Shown: piece after piece, positions 16,536 through 42,840 of the stretch | How the letters are laid out: every line of letters begins with the position of its first letter | How positions within the stretch are numbered: position 1 is the first letter of the stretch | Source: Hericium rajendrae | Lineage: Eukaryota; Basidiomycota; Agaricomycetes; Russulales; Hericiaceae | Assembly: GCA_033439255.1 (NCBI GenBank) | Contig: CM065887.1 | Coordinates: 744,001-808,000, forward strand | Length of the DNA: 64,000 nt | Direction of reading: 5' to 3' | Translations under genes and position numbers: made by a program | The notes under the pieces: generated by a model | Told to the model about the DNA's origin: nothing | The model's input: the letters and a program-made list of their open reading frames with translations, nothing else | Databases searched by the model: none

Positions 16536-19500
16536 CTAGCCAGTGAACACTCTTGCGAGTAGATACAGCGTAGATCCAGTAAAGCGCTGCAGCCAGATTA
16601 AATATCATTAGCAATCATGGACGTAGAGAAGAGCACGCACAATGATACTAGTGAAGCCGACAAACGCGAGAACGAAGGTCATATATGCTTTGGCAGCAGT
16701 GAGGTTGGCGCCCTTGGTGAACGTTACCGTCGACTGGCCGCCGCCAAGGATTCCGACCAAAAGCAAGCCCTGCGAACCAGACAATCAGACGATTGCATCT
16801 GACGGAACAAGAACGAGACTGCTCACGTTCGACAGTACCCATGCCAGCAGAACCTGGACGATCCAGAGTCAGCACAAGCAATTGTTGGGTAAGAGACAGC
16901 CCGTACATTAGTTCGCACACTCGCGTAGTAGTCTTTAGCGGCCTGTTCTTTCTCTGCCGCGGAAATACCAGCCTTGTTTTTGGGACCTTTCCGGACGGGA
17001 GTACGGTTCTTGAGATTCGAGAGCGCCTCCTCATACAGCTCATTTGCGTCCGCCGCCTCGGCCAGCATCTCGACGTCAACCAGAGAGTGCGAATCCTGGA
17101 TGACAGCACCGAGATCGGAATCTGGCGTCGAGTCCTCCTTCGTGCCCCAGGATATCTGTCAGCAGGGGCCGAGATCAGCTTTATCCAACGAGAAAGAATT
17201 GTTTTATCGACGCACGTCATCCAGATTACAAAATGCGTATCTGGAGAAATCAGCAGAATCCTGGACACGAAGCAGAGTCCGGCAACTCACATATTAAGAA
17301 TATTGATGTACGTGGGGGATAGCAGCATATAGGGTATGAAACTGGTAAACATGTGCCAGGGATCAATTGCCAAGAAGCTGGCAAACGTGTAAACTGTGAT
17401 GCATGAGGTTTTGGAGCTGTGGAGTACAAGAACGAAACTTACCTCCATAGGTCACGATAATACTAAACACCATGACTTGGTAGGCTCCGCCACCCTGCGT
17501 CGATGCCTGAACTGCGCATCGCACAGCAGCGAAGAGCAGGTACACCATCAGGATGGCAAGGAATAAGGAGATGAGCTTGTATTTCCATTTTGCACTAAGG
17601 CATGTTCGTAAGTCGGTCTGAGCAGGGTGTAGACGGGTCAACTTACGCTCGAGGTTTGTTGCCCATGGAAAAGAGGAAGCAGGCGATGACGATTGAAGCC
17701 ATTAAATACTGGGAAGTCCATCGTGAGATCGAGACGGATGGAGTGAAAGATGCGACAGACGTACTTGAATTATTGAGTTGAAGTAATTTATTCCCTTCAT
17801 GTGAAATTCCTTCGCCTCCAGCGACGAGGTTAATATGACGAAGAATAGATAGAAATTCCCCTGGAGAAAGGAACAAATGTCAGTAGACCATCCCCAGACC
17901 AAGTCGAACAACTGACGATCGCAAACCACGACGAAATCAAGTTGATGACGTTGTATATCATCTGGAACAGAAGAGCGACTTTTCGTCCAAACGAGTGTCC
18001 CGAGTGCATGACCTGCCCGATGTGGGCTATCGAATAGGTTGCAGCAAAGAAGGATCCATTCAGCCATCGTCGACGTTGGCCGATAAACTCGGGGAGTGCC
18101 TCTGGTACATCCGTTTCGCCGACGGCACTCTTCACGTATTTCAGAACCCTAGATAGATGCGAAGTCTTCTAAGTTACAATGCACGATGGCCGGAGAGAGT
18201 TCGAACGCACCAGTTGCTATTGGCTTTGGCAACGAGCTCGAAACAAAGGATTCGCTGCACTATCCGTCAGGACGCAAGCTCAAACGCATTCAGTGTACTC
18301 ACATCTTCAGCGAGATCTATAAAGTCTTTGTCAATATTGACACTTTTAATGCAACAAAAGCCGCCAGCCAACACTCACACATGTTTGAAGTGAAGATATC
18401 TGTGTCTCGGCCATGGAGAATCTCACCCTTGAAATACGAGGCCAGCGGTCCTGTTCCATTCTTATGGTTCTTCAGTGCTATGTATCTGTAGGCTGAAAAC
18501 GCGCCCGGCTGCTCCCGTAATGAGCTAGATATCCGTCGGTAAGACAAAGAGCCATACCAAAACGCTGATGTACCCGAATAGGCTTTCAGTCGGCTTGTCT
18601 AGGATATTGCTGATCTTGTATTCAAAGTTCTGCGCAGCGACTGCACATGGATTCAGTCAAATTGCTACGGCAAGAATAAACCGAACGCGCTTGTACCTAA
18701 AGGGTTCAAGAGCAACTTCCAGTTCTTGCCCTTATACGTTGCAATCTCGCCGCAGGCTCCGGCGACATTTGAATTGACATCAAACGCCTTCCAGAGGTGA
18801 TATATACTCTTGTTACCTGGCCTAGTTCCGACATCCAAGAGTACACAGACGTTTGGCTGTGAGGAATGCATCGAGTCAGACGGAACATTTGTAGGAACAA
18901 TCGTGAGTACCGGCACACCTGTAACACGGCGCCGAATGCATTGAAAAACCATCGGTGGCTGTTGATTTTCTTCGAGTTCTTCTCCTTGAGGCAGAAGATG
19001 ATCTGCGTCGGTACAATACCTTTATCCGGGTATCGGAAATGAAGATTCGGATCTAGAGCAAACGAGGTGGTATATTCGAACATATGCGCAGCGACGGCTT
19101 TGTTGTTCACCATATTCTTCATGTGGTCTCCGGGCTGGTACACGCCGAGTAACGTCAGACAGTCAAGGACACGAGGATGTATCTTCTTTCTTCCATCTGC
19201 GACGATGCAGACCACGACCTGGCCAGGTCTTTTAGGGCTTGAGCGCATAGAACAGGACCACAGCATACCTTTTTCCAGGCGGCGCCCCAAGTCTGCGAAT
19301 TCTTTCGCGAGCATAGATGTGCAATATTGCGCATGACGCCATACATGGTCCTACAAAACAGAATCTCATCCTCCTGTGACAATGGATGAGCTGTAGTCGG
19401 CATTTACATCGCAGTTGCATACTCACATTGTACATGGTAATACATATGAAAAGTTCGGTCCTTCGTCCCCTCTCATTCTGACGAAGGAAGAACCCGCTCT

Positions 19501-20758
19501 TCTCAAAGTCATCAGGATCGCATGTGACGGCCGTATACCGCATCTTCATTACTTCGGGATCTCCTATGCGCGGGAGTACAAGCTTTGGAGGCACTGGGAT
19601 GTCGATGACGAGATTACCGTTCGTGAGCTGCACGCGTTTCTTCGTCTTATGCCGACGAAGGATGCGGCCAGCGGGTGCTGGGCCAAAATGGCGCGTCCCG
19701 ACCGGTGTACCTGGGACATCAACATCCTGCGTCTTCTCACCGTATAGCAAGTTGGGCTTGTCCAGGTAGATAGAGATGTCGTCGTCATCTTCGTCATCTT
19801 CATCGTACTTCTCATCCGCATTCACGTTTTCGTGTTTGAGAGGAGAGCCAGTGTAGTGGATGCTGTCGTTCCCAACGATGTGATAGTCCTCGTCGTCGAC
19901 TGCAGGCGTGGGCGACCGTGAGCGAGGCGGTTGATATGACGCACGGGAATAAGTGCCGGAAGCGTAGGCTTCCGTATCGTGGCGAAAGTGGTCAATATAC
20001 TGAGGAGATCCAGTTGTCTGAGATGGTCCTTCAATTCGGCGAGCGGCACGATTCGGCGTGGTAGGGGATTGAATAGGGTATGATCCGTAAGGCGACGAAG
20101 AGCCATAATTTCGTACAGGAGATGTGTCCTTGTTGGAGCTAGGTAGTGCAGACATTTGAGATGCCGGGCGAGAAAAAGGGCCTGTGCTGAAAGGCACAGG
20201 GGATTGTTGCGATGCCGCTGGATCGGATGACGGGTTTCTGTCAGTGGACCTTGAAGTGGAAATATCTCCGATTTGAAAGGGCTCTCCAGAGTCGATGGTA
20301 GGAAGATGCGGAATTCGTCGTTGGTTATGTGTCGGAGGAGGGGGTTTGACCACCGTCGTCTGGCCATTGTCGTCGTGAACTTTTATTCCCGGTACATCAT
20401 AGTCGACGACTATCTCTCCAGAGACCGTACTCCGTCCTGAAAACGAGTCCCGACGCGAAGTGCCCGCATACGGCTGGGGGAGCGGTGAAGGAGCTGCGGG
20501 GAGTGGTCGGCCTGTCGACGAGCTGGCCTGCATACGGCCATGCATATGGTCTACAGCATGGTCGATCTGGTCCAGGTCTGACGCGTCCGTAGGGTCATCG
20601 GTCAGAGTATATCGTCGTAATTGGGAGTTTGCAGGGCTGTATTGTGATGAATGTGCATATCCATGCGAGCCGTAACTTGTGTCGTCATCGTCATGTTGAG
20701 GCAGAGGTTCCTGTTCGTAGGGATAAGACGGTGCAGGTTTTCGTCTGTTGAGCGCCAT
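16536..20758 (-). CDS. Chitin synthase (GT2, Chs1-3 type)
   Basis: The start ATG at 20758 ([20 protein letters not shown]) opens a disordered N-terminal region of roughly 350 residues. The chitin synthase core follows in many exons: [44 protein letters not shown] for UDP-GlcNAc binding, [11 protein letters not shown], the catalytic AEDR near 18230, and [12 protein letters not shown] near 18070. Several hydrophobic membrane segments then appear (for example [20 protein letters not shown]). The last exon ends [16 protein letters not shown], which matches the usual C-terminus and fixes the final intron (GTGCGT...CTGCAG). The enzyme makes chitin from UDP-GlcNAc at the plasma membrane. Length, near 900 residues, suits the QRRRW-containing zymogen-type classes; the exact class is not decided. 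No disruption seen. Confidence 0.95.
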
Positions 20759-21645
20759 TATGAATGTCCTGAGAAGGAGATGCGTGAAGTGGTTCGTGAG
20801 ATATGGTCGTTGAAGGAAGGGGAGAGCGCACAAGTTGGTTGAACTGTAGGCAGTCCGCAGCGGCGCGCCAGACGCGTCGAGCACGTGATCGCGTCGAATT
20901 CGTTTGTTTTTCCCACGTTCTTATGTAGAAGTTTCTTCTCAGAATCTCTTTCAATATTCAATTTCTCGGTCAATCTGTTCCGAGTCTGTGCCCACGGTGC
21001 CCCAGCTCATCGAGATACTCAATTTCGCAGCACGAACTCATCAGAATATGGGCCCAGACGTTTGGCAGGTCTTGGAGTGGCTCCTGACGACGGACCGTGT
21101 ACTGGACTGGGCACCTAGACTGGTGACCGTCTCTCGAACACAATGATGGACGAGTCGAGAACTGTACCCCAGTTCGAAGTCTGCAAGTGTCACTATCCGA
21201 GACCCCGAGTCTCGGTACGCCTTTATCACAAGCCCTGGTACACAGGTCAAGGTTTTATCGCACATATCCGCTGCACGGGTTTGTTATTCAAGAACAGCGG
21301 TCATGCACATTGCAGGCGTATTGAATCGATGTTGAGAATTTGACTCTTCTGCAGTCTTGGTCGTTGATCGTGTACTTGGCGAAGAGGGAACATAGGGGAG
21401 CATTCTGCGTTAAGGGGGACGTGGGCCGCGGCCACAGGAGGAGACGAAGAGGCTTCGTCCAGCACTCCCGCCTTAATGCAAGGTCCCTCTCCATCGCTAT
21501 TTGTGCGTACTTATTTTTCGATCAGCCTGAGATTCCCGCCGCAATACGCCATCTCAATTCCTGGTCGACTGTCGAGATTTGTGTAGCTCAAGAGCTCACC
21601 GATACCTATTGCTCTGCCACCCCCTTTTCCATTCTCATCCGCACC
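20759..21645. other. Shared promoter region of chitin synthase and hydrolase genes
   Basis: About 890 bases lie between two divergent genes. I see no convincing exon; short open frames here have no family features. It most likely carries both promoters and 5' leaders. Confidence 0.55.
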
Positions 21646-39788: not shown

Positions 39789-40309
39789 GGCGGGATGTAG
39801 ATGTGGATATCCGTCGGTAATGTATATGCAGCTGCGGTTTTTTCTAATCTCTGTCTCTTTTCCCTAAGATATCTCATCTTAATTTGTTTCCATATGACTG
39901 CTATACCCTCTGATCTGTATACGTCACAGCTCGCTCTGGAGAGACACTATTCCCTCGGAGACCTTACGACCCCATGATTCCCCTTGCATCTGACATCTGT
40001 ATGGGTTACCTGGCTACCTGACTGTATTTTTGGCTGCACTGAATTGACATTTTTGCGACTGACACATCTCTGGAGAATTGTCGAGAATGCAGCGAGGCAG
40101 TGCGGGAAATTGGACGGAAGATTGGAGCACCCGTGATGTATGCGTGTGTTTGGTGCGCAGCAGGAGGATACGTGGCAGGGACGTGTCCACCTTTTCTTCA
40201 CGAACGACCACGTACGTCCTGCGCCAGCCGTAGCCCCTTCTCCCTCGACTACAAGTTACACTCTTTATCATCCTTTCGCTTTAGACACGTCTGCAGCTTA
40301 ATTCGCATC
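39789..40309. promoter_or_regulatory. 5' region of the HAC1-like gene
   Basis: 521 bases between the stop of the large hypothetical gene and the HAC1-like ATG. It has a T-rich left half (3' end of the upstream gene) and a pyrimidine-rich leader close to 40250-40309. An upstream open frame begins at 40100 in phase with the bZIP start. No specific operator was identified. Confidence 0.4.
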
Positions 40310-41517
40310 ATGCATCGAAACGCAATGTCTATCTCAGAGTCTGCGCCCCCCACACCGTCATCGGCCTCAGAGTCGCCCGAAGCGTCGTCTTCCACGCTTC
40401 CCTCCACGTCAGTCAAGTCTCGTCCTGCTCCGTCCTCCACCGATGGCCCGCCGCGCAAGCGCACTCGGACGGATCTTACCCCCGAGGAGCGCAAGGAGGC
40501 TCGTGCCCACCGCAACCGCATCGCTGCTCAGAACAGCCGCGACAAGCGCAAAGCGCAATTCGCCACACTCGAGCGGCGCATCGTTGAACTCGAGGAGGAG
40601 AACCGGACCCTCCGCGCAAGCATGGGTCTTACTGCCCTCCGGGAATCCGAGGAGCAGCGCGCGGCGGACCACGCGCGCGAGCAGGAGAACCGAGAGCTCC
40701 GCGAGCGGGTTCGCACGCTTGAGGCTGGATGGGACGCCATCGTCAAGGCGCTCCAGACCCATGGGGTTCCTCCGGGGATCCCAGGCTTGATTTCCCAGCC
40801 GCAAGCGACACAGACCCCGACTCCATACCCCGAGGACAGGTCTTCTTCTTCCTCGACGCCTCCGCCCTCACACACGACCACATTCCCCGTCTTCGTCCCA
40901 CCGTCGCCCATATTCCCTCTTTCGCCAGCGCCCTCCCAGTCTTCTATGTCCACAGCAAATGTAAGCATGTTCGACGAGCCCGAGACCACTCGCCACCTAG
41001 CACGGGTGGCGACCACCGAAGCGTTCACTTCGGTGCCCCAGCAGCGGGTGGTCTCGACGCAACTCAACGCGCCGCGCATGAGCTCCCGGGCATTGATTTG
41101 GGAATCCAAGCGAGTGCATTTGGCGACCAAATGGGCGCACGTTCTCCGCCGGCCGACGACATCGACGAAGCAGCGATGGAGAATCTCTTTCGCGAGATTT
41201 TCGCCCCATCTCCGACGCTGTCCACCAGCCAAATTACGTCTGTCGATGATGCCGCGCCGTCCGCGCCCGCCGCGGCGGTGACGCACCACGGGTCGGAGGC
41301 GGAGGACACGGGGAGGGACTATGAGCGGGAGCGCGAGGCCGAGGCGCAGGCGGAGATGCAGAGACTCTTGGATATGTTGCCCCCGGTGGGAGATGCGGTG
41401 ACGGAGATGGATGATCAACCCAAGTTCGATGCCGACTTCTCTTCGGCGTTGAACTTGGACCTTGGCGGATGGGACTTCGCCTCGGCGGCACTGTCGTCTG
41501 GGCCCAGCGTCTTCTGA
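40310..41517 (+). CDS. HAC1: HAC1/XBP1-type bZIP factor of the unfolded protein response
   Basis: The ATG at 40310 opens MHRNAMSISESAPPTPSSAS. The bZIP sits early: basic region RAHRNRIAAQNSRDKRKAQF, then leucine-heptad positions in LERRIVELEEENRTLRASMG. NRIAAQNSRDKRK is the HAC1/XBP1 type. Unspliced, this frame ends at 41281 with a basic, arginine-rich tail (323 residues). The downstream frame instead holds an acidic region (DIDEAAMENLFREIFAPSP, MQRLLDMLPPVGDAVTEMDD, LNLDLGGWDFASAALSS) that stops at 41517. Removal of 41001-41041 joins the two as RHLA-AGGLDATQRAAHEL and gives 388 residues. In this family Ire1 cuts the mRNA on ER stress so that the activator is made. The gene call is strong; the intron is predicted. 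Confidence 0.9.
40991..41048 (+). promoter_or_regulatory. Predicted Ire1 splice element, 41-base unconventional intron
   Basis: The 5' hairpin is CGCCACC-TAGCACG-GGTGGCG (40991-41011), a perfect 7-base-pair stem with a 7-base loop; the predicted cut is after the loop's third base (41000). The 3' hairpin is CCC-CAGCAGC-GGG (41036-41048); its loop fits CNG|CNGN, with the predicted cut after 41041. Between them an 8-base-pair hairpin (41014-41035) fills the intron. The intron length, 41, is 2 modulo 3, exactly what the two frames need. The 5' loop departs from the consensus at two positions. Confidence 0.72.
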
Positions 41518-42343: not shown

Positions 42344-42840
42344 CTAGTCGTCGCGCATCTCGTCGTCGGGCGCGACGAACGAGTCCTCCGCGTCGTCGTT
42401 GTCGTCCTCCGCGGTGAGCCCGGCCTTGGCGAGCGCCTCATGGGACGTGTAGTCGACCTTGGCGCCGCGCGTGCGGCGCGCGCCCGGGAGGATCGCGGTC
42501 GGGTCGATCGCCTGCAGGTCTTCCTCCTGCGGCAGCATCAGTCAGCTGTCGCGTCGCGAAGAGAGGGCGCGCATATACGCGGAAGACGCGTCGCGCACCT
42601 CTTCCATATCGTCGTCGTCATCCTCTTCTTCCTCCTCCTCCTCTTCGTCGTCGTCGTCGTCCGCGTCCATGGGCTCGTCAGCGGGCGGCGCCGCGCTCTT
42701 GCCCTTGCCTTTGTCCGCCGCGGTGGGCGCGACGGGCGCGTCGCCCGCAGTTCTGCGCGCCGTCAGCACGCGTCACACGGATTCGAGCGGCGCACTCACT
42801 TTCCGTTGGTATTGGTAGGGACGGTCGCGTCGTTCGTCAT
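42344..42840 (-). CDS. CHZ1: Histone H2A.Z-specific chaperone CHZ1
   Basis: The start ATG at 42840 gives MTNDATVPTNTNGK. Two phase-consistent introns (GTGAGT...GCGCAG; GTGCGC...CCGCAG) join a linker, a nearly pure Asp/Glu run of about 20 residues, and the CHZ motif EEDLQAIDPTAILPGARRTR followed by GAKVDYTSHEALAKAGLTAE. The acidic tract plus IDPxxIxxGRRTRG is the hallmark of CHZ1, which binds H2A.Z-H2B dimers and delivers them to the SWR1 remodeller in the nucleus. About 130 residues, acidic tail, stop at 42344. The acidic run is encoded by a GTC/CTC-type triplet repeat at about 42605-42665, so its length may vary between strains. Confidence 0.92.

Follow-up and report, generated by a model that had tools for sequence, protein, structure and literature searches.

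A bZIP gene with two overlapping reading frames

The window analysed here, a stretch of 64 kb to whose positions all coordinates refer unless a contig is named, carries on its plus strand a bZIP gene whose frame runs without interruption, by ORF reading, from the presumed ATG at 40310 to a stop ending at 41281 and shares about 558 nt (40723-41281) with a second, acidic frame that stops at a TGA ending at 41517 (Table 1). The bZIP domain sits upstream of a predicted intron, its match to PF07716 is above the cut-off, and its basic region, NRIAAQNSRDKRKA, appears to be like that of XBP1. The original prediction, made from the sequence alone, held that the two frames can be joined only by losing a number of bases equal to 2 modulo 3, and this is borne out by ORF reading: when 41001-41041 is taken out a single ORF of 388 aa results, and when it is left in the product has 323 aa. 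Since the 5' exon coding part measures 691 nt, the intron would be in phase 1. As predicted from translation, intron loss swaps a basic tail (22 basic and 2 acidic residues) for an acidic, activation-type tail (8 basic and 30 acidic residues). The length of the overlap means that the position of the joint is not fixed by frame logic alone.

Table 1. Features of the HAC1-like gene and of its predicted intron (window positions; arrows mark cuts).
Feature	Position	Strand	Details
Promoter box ACGTGGCA	40170..40177	+	reverse complement, without mismatch, of the Cib1 UPRE core TGCCACGT of U. maydis; starts 140 nt before ATG
Coding part of the 5' exon, with presumed ATG, bZIP and a linker rich in Ser/Thr/Pro	40310..41000	+	691 nt
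bZIP domain	40481..40621	+	PF07716 (bZIP_2) E 5.6e-9; PF00170 (bZIP_1) E 1.2e-7 (Pfam)
5' arm of exon-exon helix	40981..40993	+	9 bp (40981-40989) uncut, 13 bp without intron
H5, predicted 5' splice-site hairpin	40990..41012	+	8-bp stem; loop 40998-41004 TAG↓CACG, cut after 41000
Predicted Ire1 intron	41001..41041	+	41 nt (2 mod 3), C...G ends; placed by hairpin bracketing
Unspliced-frame C-terminal extension	41001..41281	+	93 aa, pI 12.0, 22 K+R
Intron-internal hairpin	41014..41035	+	8 bp (41014-41021/41028-41035), 6-nt loop
Rival 5' Ire1 site CCG↓AAGC	41016..41022	+	no stem directly around it
H3, predicted 3' splice-site hairpin	41036..41048	+	loop 41039-41045 CAG↓CAGC, cut after 41041
3' exon coding part, acidic C-terminus to TGA	41042..41517	+	158 aa, pI 4.05
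3' arm of exon-exon helix	41044..41056	+	41048-41056 used in uncut RNA

Two bZIP family searches of the genome (46.77 Mb, 19 contigs) pointed to five places besides this HAC1-like gene. L045 (C10:474935) matched PF07716 at 2.8e-9, better than the 2.7e-7 of the HAC1-like gene in the family search. The basic regions of L045, L047, L048 and L049 presumably belong to other bZIP classes. L003 (C5:2551331-2554426) has the bZIP basic region KNRAAAFLSRQRKR, interrupted by a stop or an intron; it fits such classes less clearly and may be a UPR factor, a second stress factor.

Two further domains were seen in the window, both on the minus strand: a CHZ histone chaperone domain (42344-42541, E 1e-11), which adjoins the HAC1-like gene and is transcribed towards it, and a chitin synthase N-terminal domain (19232-20920, E 7.5e-27). 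Elsewhere in the genome, class II peroxidases gave 8 matches at seven places, five of them clustered at C14:971330-991420; for the one piece that was checked, the best solved relative was the versatile peroxidase VPL2. The peroxidase genes fit the agaricomycete origin that had been proposed for this DNA, and we take them to point to a white-rot agaricomycete.

Hairpins and an exon-exon helix form a predicted four-way junction

Two hairpins with 7-nt loops had been proposed to bracket exactly 41 bases. The bracketing stands, with the correction that the stem of the 5' hairpin, H5, has 8 bp (GU allowed) and not 7; it is the longest among the 8 hairpins of the overlap with a 7-nt loop and at least 4 bp (GU allowed). 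The segment begins with C and finishes with G, and it contains a third hairpin, both as originally described. Metazoan XBP1 is not known to have an internal 8-bp hairpin of this kind. The stem of the 3' hairpin, H3, reaches up to 5 bp alone and 2-3 bp alongside an outer helix in which the flanking exons pair (40981-40989 with 41048-41056), a helix absent from the original prediction. The exon-exon helix, H5, the internal hairpin and H3 together make the predicted fold a four-way junction. Pair probabilities were 0.68-1.0 for the exon-exon helix, 0.74-1.0 for H5, 0.95-1.0 for the internal hairpin and at most 0.24 for H3, the latter in part because the outer pairs of H3 use bases of the outer helix. 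With a predicted U40998.G41004 pair (p 0.94), only 5 nt of the H5 loop stay open. If both loops are kept at 7 nt, the fold lies at -41.7 as compared to a minimum free energy (MFE) of -44.6 kcal/mol, a gap of about 3 kcal/mol that could be paid by Ire1 binding. When the exon pieces are cut, the helix is predicted to extend to 13 bp, 40981-40993 with 41044-41056 (cofold -26.9 kcal/mol), and the predicted cut complex puts the 3' end CACCUAG beside the 5' end CA. A zipper-like structure that keeps the exons together for the ligase is described for XBP1 mRNA in PMC6037481.

The MFE was obtained for 40980-41057 (78 nt) and corresponds to a z of -5.4, with none of 1000 dinucleotide shuffles as low (z -5.13 and 0/200 in a second shuffle run). 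A scan sliding by 6 nt along each strand of the window found 37 of 21,308 equal-length windows that fold as well or better, part of which overlap the element, so that raw stability is rare yet not unique and it is the arrangement that stands out. We searched 236,022 strand-bases, comprising both strands of the window and of 11 fetched loci, for pairs of hairpins with G↓C 7-nt loops, one loop being CNG[CA]NGN, at a spacing of 15-120 that is 2 mod 3. When stems had to reach 5 bp the only pair was the 41-nt element itself, and when 4 bp sufficed the search gave 3. A stem of at least 13 bp that contains no more than 1 GU and whose arms are 30-90 nt apart also occurred once in these strand-bases; both sets of criteria were chosen post hoc, with the element already seen. 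The five other bZIP loci of the genome held no such hairpin pair at stems of at least 5 bp and one, on the minus strand of L049, at stems of at least 4 bp. Finally, the exon codons were resampled synonymously. An equally low energy was reached by 10 of 2000 sequences in which the intron was left as it is and by 4 of 2000 in which it was shuffled as well; a zipper of at least this length arose in 9/2000 synonymous resamplings.

Between 40700 and 41300, Rfam at E ≤ 10 returned only 2 matches, far below gathering scores, and no HAC1/XBP1 family, RF04247 included; PMC11701678 presents RF04247, the Hac1/Xbp1 intron family, as metazoan. No relative was found in viral and prokaryotic collections (protein and DNA-pattern scans of viral contigs; prokaryotic scan).

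Splicing machinery and cut-site specificity

At C2:1020786-1021225 the genome encodes the RNase domain of an Ire1, which scores E 5.8e-33 against yeast Ire1 and keeps RNKxHH. Reading by eye of the ORFs upstream shows a kinase, then a hydrophobic segment as well as a region that may be luminal, the ORF of the latter giving Pfam matches that are all sub-threshold. A Trl1-type ligase domain, PF09511, lies on C9 in three pieces; in S. cerevisiae, HAC1 mRNA is cut by Ire1 and joined by Trl1 (PMC6592678). Separately, L011 (C2:642000-648000, minus strand) is a second gene with a kinase (PF00069, E 5.6e-33) and an RNase 2-5A domain (PF06479, E 2.1e-13). Its N-terminal ORF has no Pfam family match, its RNase profile match covers only positions 1-72 of 127, and by eye no HH motif, a feature of the C-terminal half, could be spotted.

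Each predicted cut falls between G and C, at position 3↓4 of its loop. The 3' loop, CAG↓CAGC, fits the pattern CNG↓CNGN, as had been proposed. The 5' loop, TAG↓CACG, fails it at two positions, being without C at -3 and without G at +3. The overlap contains 12 CNG[CA]NGN 7-mers, of which the 3' site is the only one with a stem of at least 2 bp; none of the three that lie upstream of H3 has a stem. According to PMC8104961, yeast Ire1 requires CNG↓(C/A)NGN, and a relaxed yeast mutant (D at 992, R at 1059) read CNG↓NNGN on a HAC1-derived loop; on a loop derived from S. pombe BIP1, G↓C was enough for this mutant, which also cleaved further G↓C loops that varied in size. The same source finds the acidic-992, basic-1059 pattern in 175 of 230 Ire1 orthologues and ties an S. 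pombe-like Ire1 pattern to less stringent cutting. In the genome's Ire1, the residues aligned to yeast 988/992/1059 are A/D/K, offsets that we verified by counting along the alignment; they are S. pombe-like and differ from the strict E/K/Y pattern of S. cerevisiae. The objection raised by the 5' loop is thereby softened, not removed, the pattern itself being common. The preference of S. pombe Ire1 is UG↓C, as compared to AG↓C at the predicted 5' site. It is conceivable, if rather doubtful, that within the pre-folded four-way junction the 5' cut is set by the helix and the G↓C sites and not by a CNG↓CNGN loop, and that this goes along with a relaxed Ire1 of the S. pombe/human type which might possibly also carry out mRNA decay.

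Placing the joint between the frames

In the full version of the codon model, which comprised 2,724 codons and omitted a training segment containing a stop, the best single change point fell at 40837 with a 95% interval of 40756-41079, and a switch at 41042 fitted 3.6 log units worse; the synonymous-only model gave an interval of 40826-41213. The joint is therefore neither confirmed nor excluded by codon statistics. In 41042-41160 the bZIP frame has a third-position GC of 0.79 and thus exceeds the acidic frame with 0.56, which would be explained by a dual-coding stretch, by a later joint or by noise in 40 codons. Taken as an observation of its own, this GC content is a possible sign of dual coding.

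Ire1 might cut at the same 3' site and use CCG↓AAGC as the 5' site, cutting after 41018 and releasing a 23-nt intron, 41019-41041. This 7-mer matches CNG↓ANGN, and 23 is 2 mod 3 and inside the 20-26 nt reported for filamentous ascomycetes (PMC8071499). However, the stem around the 7-mer is 0, and the 7-mer overlaps the 5' arm of the internal hairpin, whose pairs are predicted at 0.95-1.0. With 12 such 7-mers in the overlap, one in the right phase is unsurprising, and the 8-bp stem of H5 would be left without an explanation. We consider the shorter intron unlikely; it nevertheless qualifies, together with the off-consensus 5' loop, the 41-nt borders, which are the best choice.

A conventional spliceosomal intron somewhere within 40723-41281 could also join the frames, the RNA fold then being incidental, and the overlap offers 78 GT-AG pairs that span 40-130 nt, 22 of which are indeed 2 mod 3. 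The best-scored pair, 40840-40928 (GTCTTC, CTNAY, CCAG), is adjoined by the codon change point at 40837. Against this, a good 5' site, CTNAY and YAG occur together in none of the 78 pairs. Introns elsewhere in the genome carried CTNAY and YAG in 10/10 cases and GTRNGT in 8/10 and measured 49-56 nt in 9/10. They come from conserved genes in which 19 gaps separate the domain pieces; 10 gaps gave an intron and 9 no candidate, the choice among intron candidates having favoured CTNAY/YAG/GTRNGT signals. Such an intron would moreover leave the fold and the zipper unexplained, and we regard it as distinctly improbable. One GT-AG look-alike, GTAAGC...CCTAG at 40961..41000 (plus strand, 40 nt), was rejected: it is 1 mod 3, has no CTNAY and leads into a frame closed before 41097.

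An assembly error or a decayed gene, in which a single-base error breaks one frame, is very improbable: one missing base would shift the frame as well, yet the unique parts are GC-richest at the third position (bZIP 0.72, acidic 0.81), the element is structured beyond codon constraint according to the synonymous resampling, and the frame break lies 3' of the bZIP, the place of the intron in HAC1 homologues (PMC3154848). Least probable of all is -1 programmed ribosomal frameshifting. The acidic frame is indeed -1 relative to the bZIP frame, and a strong RNA structure that could act as stimulator is at hand, but all three XXXYYYZ heptamers of the overlap are out of phase, and frameshifting has no need of two cut-site loops and a zipper.

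A Cib1-type box upstream of UPR genes

The promoter box of the HAC1-like gene recurs in other promoters. Target sites of U. maydis Cib1 have TGCCACGT in common (PMC4836707), and for the pit1/2 UPRE of this fungus (TGCCACGTCG) a copy in the promoter of cib1 is reported too (PMC4836707; PMC8071499). Counted from presumed ATGs, the exact box was found in one orientation at -140 in the HAC1-like gene, at about -100 in BiP, whose protein has the C-terminus SHDEL, and at -127 in calnexin; the promoters of ERO1 and DER1 lacked the exact box. IRE1 (L010), which had been listed as a control, has a ACGTGGCA box about 273 nt before its open frame begins. Overall, a box lay at most 300 nt upstream in 4/6 UPR genes and in 0/10 other genes (6 other HSP70 places, Trl1 and 3 bZIP places), the distances in these comparison genes being taken from the first domain match. 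Two of the ten have a box farther away, at -322 in L045, inside the open frame of its match, and at -1032 in L039. The box occurs 1778 times in 46.77 Mb and the reversed pattern 1495 times. At the genome rate, the probability that at least three of the first five genes carry a box is 1.4e-5, a value that assumes promoters like the genome at large and that includes the gene which had prompted the test. As a separate observation, the box before IRE1 itself suggests feedback on the sensor.

Proposed identity and mechanism

The gene is very probably an orthologue of HAC1/XBP1/HXL1/Cib1 with an Ire1 intron, as first proposed. This reading is supported by the layout of frames and tails and by the presence of Ire1 and a Trl1-type ligase domain in the genome, by the Cib1-type box shared with BiP and calnexin, by the 13-bp exon zipper and by the finding that no GT-AG pair shows the customary signals. 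That the intron measures exactly 41 nt, 41001-41041, is probable, at a lower confidence. We infer cutting, joining, induction and the exact borders from the frames, the predicted fold, the Ire1 and ligase domains and the promoter boxes. Upon ER stress, Ire1 would cleave the 5' loop behind G41000 and the 3' loop behind G41041. The exons, already paired over 9 bp, would zip to 13 bp and eject the intron, and the zipped helix would keep both exon ends close to each other until the Trl1-type tRNA ligase seals them. The ligation would shift the frame from the 93-aa basic tail to the 158-aa acidic tail, giving a 388-aa bZIP activator that would induce BiP, calnexin and its own gene via ACGTGGCA boxes.

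Comparison with known systems

Two of the closest known parallels come from other basidiomycetes. C. neoformans HXL1, as described in PMC3154848, is likewise a bZIP UPR factor with an Ire1 intron 3' of the bZIP whose borders, too, are predicted in stem-loops. It differs in the length of its unspliced and spliced products (406/426 aa in serotype B as compared to 323/388 aa here), in its intron of 56 nt with CAG at both borders (here 41 nt with TAG at the 5' border) and in a conventional 55-nt intron before the bZIP, none being needed here for an open frame. U. maydis cib1, also a basidiomycete HAC1-like gene, has an intron of 65 nt instead of 41 (PMC8071499). Metazoan XBP1 resembles the gene described here in its frame switch and its exon zipper (PMC6037481), both predicted here; its two cleavage sites lie in 7-nt loops, which can be drawn here as well, and its intron has 26 nt (PMC4490496) in place of 41. 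The HAC1 intron of S. cerevisiae has 252 nt and pairs with the 5' UTR (PMC6116095), in contrast to the 41 nt here. The original prediction regarded 41 nt as a distinct size; the 56 nt (PMC3154848) and 65 nt (PMC8071499) that it quoted for other basidiomycetes were confirmed, but yeast HAC1 introns are reported to range from 19 to almost 850 nt, so that 41 falls inside the known range and does not define a new kind.

Hxl1 homologues of Coprinopsis (CC1G_02249 in C. cinerea) and Laccaria were named in 2011, as uncharacterised (PMC3154848). Among the literature matches listed there was no paper on an agaricomycete HAC1 intron, and we make no claim of its being unpublished. For the genome of Pycnoporus cinnabarinus, PMC4101180 reports Ire1 and Trl1 as present and a clear HAC1/XBP1 orthologue as not identifiable. 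Frames that can be joined only by a C...G intron would explain why HAC1-type genes have been missed. The off-consensus 5' site bears on how far the specificity of Ire1 can relax, and the unfolded protein response is important to fungi that secrete wood-degrading enzymes.
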